Positions 11,171 through 19,312 of a stretch of DNA of 64,000 bases are shown in pieces (positions within the stretch are counted from its first letter, which is position 1; each line of letters opens with the position of its first letter). Below the pieces are notes generated by a model. It did no database searches and was not told the DNA's origin. It saw only the letters and a program-made list of their open reading frames with translations. This DNA is from Dehalococcoidia bacterium (GTDB lineage: Bacteria; Chloroflexota; Dehalococcoidia; DSTF01; JALHUB01), in NCBI GenBank assembly GCA_030018455.1, contig JASEFU010000001.1, forward strand, positions 125,545 through 189,544, read 5' to 3'. Position numbers and translations under genes: made by a program.

Positions 11171-11839
11171 ATGAACCTCCTGCGCTCGTTCCTCCGCCGA
11201 CAGCAGTCGCCCGACGCTAACGCCGAGGACGCCGCTCGCCCGGAAGAGGCGCCGTCTCCGCGCCTGATCATCGGCCTCGGCAATCCCGGCCGCGACAACG
11301 CCCACAACCGCCACAACGTCGGCTTCTGGCTCGTCAACCGTCTCGCCCGCCGCTACGGCATCCCGCTGAAGACCCACGCGCGCCTCGCCACAACCGGCGA
11401 AGGGCGAATCGAGGGGCGGCAGGCGGTGCTTGCGAAGCCGAGGACGTACGTGAACCGCAGCGGCGAAGCAGTCGCCGCGCTGGCCCGTCGGCACGGGACA
11501 CGAAAAGAAGAGATACTGATCGTCTGCGACAGCCTCGATCTGCCCGTGGGGGCGCTGCGCATCCGTCTCAAAGGAGGGCACGGCGGCCACAACGGCCTGC
11601 GGTCGATAGTCAGCCGGCTGGGCACGAGCGACTTCCCCCGCATCCGCATCGGCATCGGACGGCCGGTCGTGCGGGGGGAGCCGTCCTACGACCCGGCGGT
11701 GATCGCCGAGTACGTGCTCAGCGATCCGCCACCTGAGGAGCGCGCGGCGCTCGACGGGGCGGTCGCACGGGGAGTCGAAGCCGTCGCCTTGATGATGACC
11801 GAGGGCGTTGAGGCGGCGATGAACCGCTTCAACGAGTGA
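11171..11839 (+). CDS. pth: Peptidyl-tRNA hydrolase
   Basis: 222 residues from the ATG at 11171; an in-frame ATG at 11141 would add 10 residues and cannot be excluded. Pth releases tRNA from stalled peptidyl-tRNA. The family core starts at LIIGLGNPG, about 27 residues in. It carries NRHNVGF (catalytic His region), the CDSLDLP aspartate and the GGHGGHNGLRSI loop. The charged N-terminal extension is unusual, as most Pth proteins begin a few residues before LIIGLGNPG. The gene is otherwise full length. The 148 bases upstream hold no clear promoter. Confidence 0.93.
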   Translation: MNLLRSFLRRQQSPDANAEDAARPEEAPSPRLIIGLGNPGRDNAHNRHNVGFWLVNRLARRYGIPLKTHARLATTGEGRIEGRQAVLAKPRTYVNRSGEAVAALARRHGTRKEEILIVCDSLDLPVGALRIRLKGGHGGHNGLRSIVSRLGTSDFPRIRIGIGRPVVRGEPSYDPAVIAEYVLSDPPPEERAALDGAVARGVEAVALMMTEGVEAAMNRFNE

Positions 11840-14007: not shown

Positions 14008-14826
14008 CTAAGAGTGACGCCTCACGAAGTCGACCACGGCCTCGTTGAAGCCGTCCGCAGCGTCCAGGTTTACCGCGTGGCCCGCGTCGAGCGCCTCGAC
14101 CTCGAGAAAGGGCATATTCGCCTCTGCGAACCGCCGGTGAGGCGCGAACCTCTTCTCCCGCTCGCCCACGACCAGCAGCGCCGGCACCCTGTTCTCGACC
14201 ACGCGCCCGCGCACCGAGGATGGCGGGACGGTGTACAGGCCGGTGCAGGCGATCCCGCGCGGCGAGTGGAGCGCGTAGTCCTCGCGCAGGGCGTCTCGCA
14301 CTTGCGGGCCGAGCCGCTTGTTACGCGCGGGGTTAAGCGGATGTTCCGCCAGAACTCGCCGCCCCTCAGTTTCGAGGCGTCGCGCCTGCTCCTCCATGAA
14401 CGGCCGCACCGCCGCTTCCCAGCCTTCCTCGGCGAGGGCCGAGTTCGAGTTGGTGAATATTTGTGCGGCCACGCGGTCCGGGCAGTCCAGCGCGTAGCGA
14501 ATGGTCAGCGCCGCGCCGAGCGACTGCCCGCACACAAGCCACCTCTCGGCGCCAAGAAGCGTCCGTATCGCCTCGAACTCGCAGCCGTAGTATTCGGGGG
14601 TGTAGCAGGCCGGATCGTCCGGGGTTGGCGACCGCCCATGGCCGAAGAGCTCGACGACGACTGGGCGACAGACGCGGCGCAGCGCGGCGAGGTTGGGCAG
14701 CCACTGGGAGCGGCTCGAGAGCATGCCGTGCACGAGGAGAAGGAACGGCCCACTCCCCTCGTGCACCTCGTAGTAGAGCGAAGGCGTTGCCTGTCCCGGC
14801 GCGCCCACCGGCGTCTCACGCGTCAC
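14008..14826 (-). CDS. Alpha/beta hydrolase, partner of the OsmC selenoprotein candidate
   Basis: 272 residues from a GTG at 14826. Alpha/beta hydrolase fold: HG of the oxyanion region at 33-34, nucleophile Ser102 in GQSLGAA, and His250 in AGHAVNLD. The acid residue is likely within the GEREKRF segment. It starts 4 bases after the stop of the OsmC gene, so the two form an operon. Single-chain alpha/beta hydrolase-OsmC fusions are known in other bacteria, so this is probably the split form of that pair. Substrate unknown; an ester or acylated thiol linked to peroxide defence is possible. Confidence 0.8.
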   Translation of the reverse strand: MTRETPVGAPGQATPSLYYEVHEGSGPFLLLVHGMLSSRSQWLPNLAALRRVCRPVVVELFGHGRSPTPDDPACYTPEYYGCEFEAIRTLLGAERWLVCGQSLGAALTIRYALDCPDRVAAQIFTNSNSALAEEGWEAAVRPFMEEQARRLETEGRRVLAEHPLNPARNKRLGPQVRDALREDYALHSPRGIACTGLYTVPPSSVRGRVVENRVPALLVVGEREKRFAPHRRFAEANMPFLEVEALDAGHAVNLDAADGFNEAVVDFVRRHS

Positions 14827-14830
14827 AACG

Positions 14831-15310
14831 CTACTCCGCCGGTGCTTCCTCTCGCACGTCCGCCGTCCATCTGACCTCTATGGCGCCCTTCACGCTCTGA
14901 TAGCCGGGGCAGGCGTCGAAATGCGTTTCCAGCGCCCGCTGGACGTCGTCCTTCCTGCCGGCGGGCACCGTTAGCCGGTAGTGGATGCCGATCTCCGTGA
15001 TGCCGATGGTCAGCCCCTTCTTCTCGACCCGTCCCTCCACCTGCGCGGTGTAGTCCTCGGTCTTCACCCTGATCCCGCGTGCTGCCAGCACGCCCAACAA
15101 CGTCCCGTACAGTCAGCCTCCAACCGCGGCGACGATATGGTCGAGCGTCGAAGCCATCGAGGGCACCTTGTCCGGCACGCGGTAGTAGTCTCTGAGCGCG
15201 CCCTGGACGCCGTATATCACTGGCTCCTCTATCTCTCCCAAGTAGGCGTGCCGCATCCGGTCTTTCATCTCCAGCCTGGTGCGGGAGATGTACAGGAAAT
15301 CCTTTTCCAT
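14831..15310 (-). CDS. OsmC-family protein with in-frame TGA (putative selenocysteine) at the catalytic Cys
   Basis: The minus-strand frame starts at the ATG at 15310 (GGAGGAGG just upstream), meets TGA at 15115-15113 after 65 codons, and continues in the same frame to a normal stop at 14831, giving 159 residues if TGA is decoded. OsmC/Ohr proteins are thiol peroxidases with two conserved cysteines. Here the first one, in the usual VGGC-L-x-GTL context, is the TGA (VGG-U-LYGTLLG, residue 66); the second is intact as Cys134 (DACPGYQ). The DHIVAAVGG helix before it and everything after it are well conserved, with no other lesion. A hairpin fitting a bacterial SECIS lies 19 bases past the TGA. 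OsmC-like selenoproteins are, to my recollection, known from metagenome surveys. A simple nonsense mutation is the alternative but explains neither position nor hairpin. Confidence 0.83.
15077..15093 (-). promoter_or_regulatory. Putative bacterial SECIS hairpin in the OsmC-like gene
   Basis: On the minus strand GCGTGCT, loop GGC, AGCACGC forms a perfect 7-bp stem. The first stem base is 20 nt after the TGA and the loop lies 27-29 nt after it. Bacterial SECIS elements sit directly downstream of the UGA with the apical loop about 16-37 nt away and a guanine among the first loop bases; both hold here. The stem lies within coding sequence (LLGVLAARG), as expected for bacteria. Confidence 0.7.
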
Positions 15311-15439
15311 AGTCGCCTCCTCCTTTCCTCTGTCTCATCCGAAAGAGGATGCTAAGCGCCGTCGCTCCTCACGTCAACAAGCGAGTATCGAATCGAATGC
15401 CGGCCGTGTTATTCTGGGCTTTCGTAGGGAGACGACCGC

Positions 15440-17698: not shown

Positions 17699-19312
17699 AT
17701 GGCAAAGAACTCTTTTAAAGAAGCGGCCGTAAAGATATACAACGACGCCAAACGCAGCGGCAGGCTGATCGAAAACCTTGGCCTCGACCAGGCGAAGGCG
17801 ATAGCGCTGACCCAGGACGGCGTCATCGAAACGCAGTTAGGCTCTGTCGCAGCCAACTCGGAGCCCATGTCGCGGGCAGCGCCGCATACAAAGAACAGCG
17901 TCGATAGCCCGTTCGGTGAGGAAGAAGAGCTACTGGCGCATCAGGCGGTGCAGGCCTTGAGCTCCGAGAAACTGATATCGCTCGACGTCATGGTCGGCGA
18001 CGGGAAGGACGGCGTGTCGGCGCGCTTCCTTATCCCGCTGGAGCATGCCGTCCTCGCCTACGCGCTCAAGCTTCTCTTCGGCGGGCCCCCTCTCGTCGTT
18101 GAAGACCCCACGTACACGATAATCTACTTCACCGACGAAGCGTTCGAGGCAAACAAGAGCAAGCGCCTGATCGATAAGGACATCCAGGTCCGGCTGTACA
18201 TGGGAGAGAAGAGAGGGGAGCAGGTCAAAATATGCCGCAACACCGCCTACATGGGCGAAGGGAAGAAAGGCGTCTTCCAGTTCGAGAGCTGGCGGGTGAA
18301 GGCCATCGATAAGATGGGCATCTTCCTGCACGCCGGCGCCCGCCGCGACAGGCTATGGGTGTACGACTTTCAGACTGAGCGCCCCGAGCTAATCGAGATT
18401 AATACAACGGTGGGAGGCGCCACGGCAACCGGTAAGACCACCAGCCTCTGCCGCCGTCTGGCGCGCATGCCCAAAGAATCTTCAGAGATGATCGGCGACG
18501 ACGGCGGCACCTTCAACTTCGACGGCAGCTACGCCGCGTTCGAGATGGGCGGCCTCTACGTCAAGACGGAGAACCTCGACTCCAGCCAGCCGGAGATACT
18601 GAGGGCCGCCGAATCGAAGGACACCTTCCTCGAAAACGTTGCCATATCCAAGTACCCGTACATACCCAACTTCTCCGACCTCTCGCTAACGGCGAACGGC
18701 AGGGCGGTAGTGGCCCGCGCCAACCTCGAGATCGCCAGCGCCGGCCTTCGCGCCGACAAGATCGATAGCCTCATCATCCTCACCAGGAATCCGCTGGCGA
18801 ACGTCGTCTCCAAGCTCACGCCCGAGCAGATGACGATGCAGCTCATCTACGGCGAGACCGTCGAAAGCTCAGGCGGCAATCCCGAGGAAGCGGGCAAGTT
18901 CCACCGCGAGTTCTTTCTCGACCCCTTCATCACCGGTGACCGCCTGGAGCACGCCATGATCTTCTATGACGTGGTGAAGCGCAATAACATCAAGTGCTAC
19001 CTGGCGAACACCGGCACCATCGGCCAGGACGAGATCAAGGTCGACCTCCGCCAGTCGCTCTCCGCCTACAACGACGTGCTGCGGAACCTGATGATCTTCA
19101 GCTCCGAACCAGACCACCTGGGGTACCACTTCCCCGTGCGCTGCGATAGGGCGAACCTCGACTATATGCGGGCCGCCCCCCTCTTCCCCGACAAGGCGCT
19201 GCTGGAGAAGAAGATCGAGGACTTCCTGAAAGGCCGGAGAGAGTACCTGGAGCGCTTCGAGAGCGAGTACGGGCAGATTCCCGCCAAGATACGCGACTCG
19301 CTGCCCCACTAG
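17699..19312 (+). CDS. Divergent ATP-dependent phosphoenolpyruvate carboxykinase
   Basis: 537 residues, the usual length of ATP-type PEPCK. It should interconvert oxaloacetate + ATP and PEP + CO2 + ADP. The C-terminal half aligns well in pattern: ILTRNPLANVVSKLTPEQ, HREFFLDPF and CYLANTGTIGQ correspond to the conserved SKLTPEQ, CFGAPF and NTGWTG blocks. The P-loop reads GGATATGKTT instead of the usual GLSGTGKTT, and the metal site region reads IGDDGGTFNFDG. These changes leave open a different substrate. The first 60 residues are not clearly homologous. AAGGAGACC precedes the ATG. It overlaps the end of the opposite-strand gene by 4 bases. Confidence 0.75.
   Translation: MAKNSFKEAAVKIYNDAKRSGRLIENLGLDQAKAIALTQDGVIETQLGSVAANSEPMSRAAPHTKNSVDSPFGEEEELLAHQAVQALSSEKLISLDVMVGDGKDGVSARFLIPLEHAVLAYALKLLFGGPPLVVEDPTYTIIYFTDEAFEANKSKRLIDKDIQVRLYMGEKRGEQVKICRNTAYMGEGKKGVFQFESWRVKAIDKMGIFLHAGARRDRLWVYDFQTERPELIEINTTVGGATATGKTTSLCRRLARMPKESSEMIGDDGGTFNFDGSYAAFEMGGLYVKTENLDSSQPEILRAAESKDTFLENVAISKYPYIPNFSDLSLTANGRAVVARANLEIASAGLRADKIDSLIILTRNPLANVVSKLTPEQMTMQLIYGETVESSGGNPEEAGKFHREFFLDPFITGDRLEHAMIFYDVVKRNNIKCYLANTGTIGQDEIKVDLRQSLSAYNDVLRNLMIFSSEPDHLGYHFPVRCDRANLDYMRAAPLFPDKALLEKKIEDFLKGRREYLERFESEYGQIPAKIRDSLPH

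Follow-up and report, generated by a model that had tools for sequence, protein, structure and literature searches.

The gene and its surroundings

The window, by which we mean the whole 64,000-nucleotide stretch of DNA that was analyzed, carries on its reverse strand a gene of the OsmC superfamily (14831 to 15310) that specifies 159 amino acids if a single in-frame TGA is read through. The frame opens with an ATG at 15310, 5 bases downstream of a Shine-Dalgarno sequence, AGGAGG (15316 to 15321, reverse strand), and closes with a TAG at 14833 to 14831; the TGA, on the same strand at 15115 to 15113, is codon 66, and apart from it the frame contains neither a stop nor a frameshift. An earlier note on this DNA had described two same-frame parts of one OsmC protein divided by TGA alone, with the TGA at the position of the catalytic cysteine, the second cysteine intact and no further lesion, and our analysis bears out this description in full. 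When the TGA was taken as an amino acid, in the context HIVAAVGG-U-LYGTL, the protein matched the Pfam OsmC profile (PF02566; curated cut-off, 27.5 bits) with 47.2 bits over residues 56 to 148, a match that spans the TGA, compared with 33.6 bits for the C-terminal part alone. Codon 134, at 14909 to 14911 on the reverse strand, is TGC and encodes a candidate resolving cysteine that is present in all 27 aligned members of the family.

An alpha/beta hydrolase gene (14008 to 14826, reverse strand; Pfam Abhydrolase_6) lies directly downstream and is possibly cotranscribed with the OsmC gene. It is not conserved beside the OsmC genes of relatives in a neighbor comparison, and no conserved operon partner was found among the relatives beyond one genus-level group; a PHROGs search gave no match. 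Elsewhere in the window, positions 17699 to 19312 encode a protein resembling phosphoenolpyruvate carboxykinase (ATP), for which the Pfam match is moderate (121.8 bits).

Conservation of the TGA codon

Matches to the OsmC gene were present in 17 of the 197 related genomes of the class set and in 39 of 400 genomes of the phylum-wide set, and a scan of GTDB genomes yielded 29 loci, including some from Acidobacteria and two contigs labeled Bacillota. At the codon aligned with residue 66, TGA occurs in 66 of 69 distinct relatives drawn from Chloroflexota, Acidobacteriota and the contigs labeled Bacillota, an agreement that, on comparison of the sequences, places the TGA at the OsmC cysteine codon far beyond chance. 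The exceptions are TGC in L101, TGG in L100 and TGT in L102, a very distant match; the counts of cysteine forms are not systematic for Acidobacteriota. The alternation between cysteine and selenocysteine for which the earlier note proposed to look is heavily one-sided, with selenocysteine prevailing and the cysteine form rare, and random lesions elsewhere in the gene, which it had named as grounds for doubt, were not seen in the relatives. Invariant among 27 aligned members are U66, C134, L56, D57, V60, A62, G69, L75, R78, G93, R125, H130 and P135, and R20 is retained in 25 of 26. In close pairs, codons past the TGA vary at their third position far more than at the other two, and the remainder of the protein is therefore made and under selection.

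These data bear directly on the proposal that an ordinary cysteine codon has become TGA through decay of the gene or an error of sequencing. Although TGC and TGT are each one change from TGA, the identical codon recurs in 66 of 69 distinct genes, which come from assemblies made independently and represent several phyla, and purifying selection continues past it in a gene with no other lesion; we consider this explanation extremely improbable and rejected it because the TGA is conserved. Equally slight is the likelihood that TGA has been reassigned throughout the organism to tryptophan or glycine, a possibility to which the TGG codon of L100 lends some color, since TGA terminates neighboring genes of the window (at 11839, 11851, 16130 and 17526), several of the OsmC relatives themselves end in TGA, and tRNA-Sec and SelB are present; it was discarded because this genome uses TGA to end genes in the normal way. 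The TGA at 15115 to 15113 is thus almost certainly read as selenocysteine, and the locus, as judged from sequence, would be a true selenoprotein gene.

In selenoprotein families, members with cysteine usually far outnumber those with selenocysteine. In the present subfamily, which by its sequences is almost wholly selenocysteine containing and in which cysteine forms are nearly absent, this ratio is reversed, and the reversal suggests a reaction that requires selenium. The branch as a whole is widespread and almost always selenium containing. L100 (G465:C49; Trp) and L101 (G531:C243; Cys) are the sole family members without TGA, and their genomes retain tRNA-Sec and selA. Some genomes hold more than one such gene: G443:C1 has two near-identical copies (L104 and L105) separated by about 20 kb, and G041 has three OsmC-type selenoprotein genes, namely, a very divergent second paralogue (L040; G041:C76), a normal member of the subfamily and a member of the NCBIfam family NF041052.

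Selenocysteine machinery

The source genome (2.38 Mb; 97.7% complete) contains all the components that the earlier note had suggested searching for: selA (566 bits), selB (339 bits over both parts), a tRNA-Sec with anticodon TCA (74.7 bits) and selD. The selD gene (L001; G000:C7:76281-77216) has an in-frame TGA of its own, in the context CAGUAGKAG, and although its product is unrelated to OsmC, it serves as a control for the use of selenocysteine in this organism. Among the genomes that carry the OsmC gene, tRNA-Sec was detected in 32 of 32 of good quality and in 42 of 50 overall, the 8 that lack it all being less than 90% complete; of 12 additional carriers, 9 also had it, among them 4 of the 5 from Acidobacteriota. 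Carriers more often had selA than did other genomes, both in the class set (15 of 17, compared with 109 of 180; p = 0.018) and in the phylum set (37 of 39, compared with 286 of 361; p = 0.010), but the test has modest force, since selA is widespread in this phylum and the genomes, being related, are not independent. The two carriers in the class set without selA (G039 and G047) are 81 to 86% complete, and tRNA-Sec is present in G039.

A candidate SECIS hairpin

Just downstream of the UGA, at 15077 to 15093 on the reverse strand, the gene can form a candidate bacterial SECIS hairpin, GCGTGCT-GGC-AGCACGC, with a perfect 7-bp stem that covaries in relatives. A stem-loop just 3' of the UGA with a G in its apical loop is the hallmark of such an element; here the stem is closed by a GGC loop that lies 30 to 32 nucleotides from the U of the UGA. 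In most members of the family, the sequence directly 3' of the UGA can fold into a 7-bp stem capped by a GGC-type triloop, the common form being GCGCGCT-GGC-AGCGCGC. The gene of the window departs from this form by a T-A pair in place of C-G, in which a change from alanine to valine (position 26) is compensated by a synonymous change (position 36). Positions 27 and 35 are variously G-C, A-T and C-G and pair in 57 of 63 distinct sequences, compared with a mean of 43.5 and a maximum of 49 in shuffles, a control that ignores relatedness, so that the figure is not a probability. In one subclade, the stem adopts a different register, an 8-bp stem moved toward the UGA. The 7-bp stem is disrupted in both the tryptophan form (L100; 6 of 7 pairs) and the cysteine form (L101; 5 of 7 pairs). 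Codon-preserving shuffles across the family gave a mean z of -1.12 in the 45 nucleotides after the UGA and of +0.35, -0.39 and +0.20 in the three intervals that follow. For the gene of the window taken singly, the minimum free energy test gave no hairpin signal (z = +1.18), and 24% of synonymous recodings equaled its hairpin; it is the family-wide signal, together with the covariation, that carries the assignment of this hairpin as a candidate SECIS element.

Predicted structure and proposed function

An AlphaFold2 model of the protein (pLDDT, 94.6; pTM, 0.86) gave top Foldseek matches that were all OsmC or Ohr structures, and the protein is accordingly predicted to adopt the OsmC/Ohr fold. 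In proteins of this fold, the reactive cysteine lies in a long central helix and the resolving cysteine between two later helices. U66 and C134, respectively, occupy the corresponding places in the model.

From the reading frame, the position of the codon, its conservation, the machinery and the covariation of the hairpin, all of which can be read directly in the genomes, we infer that SelB and Sec-tRNA(UCA) decode UGA 66 as selenocysteine under the direction of the hairpin just downstream. The product would be a protein of the OsmC/Ohr fold, presumably dimeric like its relatives, in which Sec66 takes the place of the usual peroxidatic cysteine. Most likely, Sec66 would reduce organic hydroperoxides, or a related electrophile, and be converted to a selenenic acid; this would be resolved by Cys134 to a selenenylsulfide, which a cellular dithiol would reduce again. 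A peroxidase in which selenocysteine attacks and Cys134 resolves is thus the likely function, and we lean, with some reserve, toward Sec66 as a hydroperoxidase residue.

That reserve has its origin in the active site. In the Ohr of Xylella fastidiosa, the active-site pair Arg19/Glu51 stands beside the cysteine (PMC5962072); here an arginine, R20, is almost always retained, but the position of the catalytic glutamate, 10 residues before the cysteine, is occupied by Leu56, and the invariant acid D57 lies one residue on, nine before U66, so that Ohr-like peroxide chemistry is unproven. A less probable but credible alternative is that the selenoprotein is no hydroperoxidase and that Sec66 and Cys134 serve in thiol-disulfide or persulfide exchange or act on a specific electrophile. 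The leucine at the glutamate position would suit such a role, as would a conserved set (L56, D57, R78 and H130) and a U-x-x-G-T motif that are unlike those of Ohr and OsmC and the distance of the protein from all solved OsmC and Ohr structures (10 to 18% identity), whereas the fold, the Cys/Sec pair and R20 (in 25 of 26 members) match the OsmC/Ohr layout, and the source genome has no other gene of the OsmC family. Because this gene is the only one of its family in the genome, any OsmC activity of the organism would depend on selenium.

Relationship to known OsmC proteins

Studies of the Sargasso Sea (2005) and the GOS survey (2008) described OsmC-like selenoproteins with the motif UxxT (PMC1088965, PMC2398784), which bears out the earlier note's statement that such proteins have been reported from metagenomes, and a 2026 inventory of prokaryotic selenoproteins has one OsmC entry, also UxxT (PMC13188914); the present gene, however, falls in another OsmC subfamily. 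The known family (COG1765; NF041052, OsmC_like_Se), which we equate with the published UxxT proteins on the basis of its name and of the UxxT motifs, ULLT and the like, that its members carry, likewise falls in the OsmC superfamily, has selenocysteine for the reactive cysteine, is known from metagenomes and also occurs in the class of the window's organism. Plain membership in it would account for selenocysteine at the equivalent position and for the weak match to NF041052 that 24 of the 27 members show (1.8e-6 at best). Against this, the present protein scores 16.5 bits where the cut-off is 95, and other members are weak too; the members of NF041052 with selenocysteine in these genomes are mostly ULLT, whereas the present subfamily has U-x-x-G-T, with UxxT broken by the invariant G69 (U+3), and differs in its other conserved residues; and in a tree built from short domains and rooted at the midpoint, the subfamily forms one clade (100/99 support), apart from the NF041052 group and the cysteine-type OsmC proteins. 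On score, motif and clade, we rejected plain membership, which is very improbable.

The remaining relatives are more distant. Ohr shares the fold (Foldseek E about 4e-9), the position of the reactive residue and a second cysteine but has its catalytic glutamate where the present protein has leucine and cysteine where the latter has selenocysteine, and the NCBIfam Ohr model gave 13.1 bits (cut-off, 88.85). Escherichia coli OsmC (TIGR03562; 1qwi and 1nye) is similarly alike in fold, in the position of the Cys/Sec residue and in the second cysteine, but there too selenocysteine replaces cysteine in the present protein, which scored 16.7 bits compared with a cut-off of 85.8.

The NCBIfam OsmC models NF041052, TIGR03561 and TIGR03562 do not cover the present subfamily, nor is it recognizable in the 2026 inventory (PMC13188914), and such genes are therefore probably annotated as two fragments or as pseudogenes. 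Set apart from the published proteins by way of NF041052 and the motif, it is apparently a second, unlisted subfamily of OsmC selenoproteins. We regard it as probable that these genes constitute a family of their own, in which selenocysteine is the normal state, which extends over at least Chloroflexota and Acidobacteriota, which bears the signature D57, U66-x-x-G-T, R78, R125, H130 and C134, and which perhaps has its own chemistry.

A few other OsmC-family genes that score below the NF041052 cut-off also have TGA at the cysteine position (L144 in G098, L147 in G112, L143 in G043, and L146 and L148 in G046 and G073), and two of them sit inside an otherwise cysteine-type clade. On the basis of these sequences, OsmC proteins of this phylum seem to have gained selenocysteine several times.
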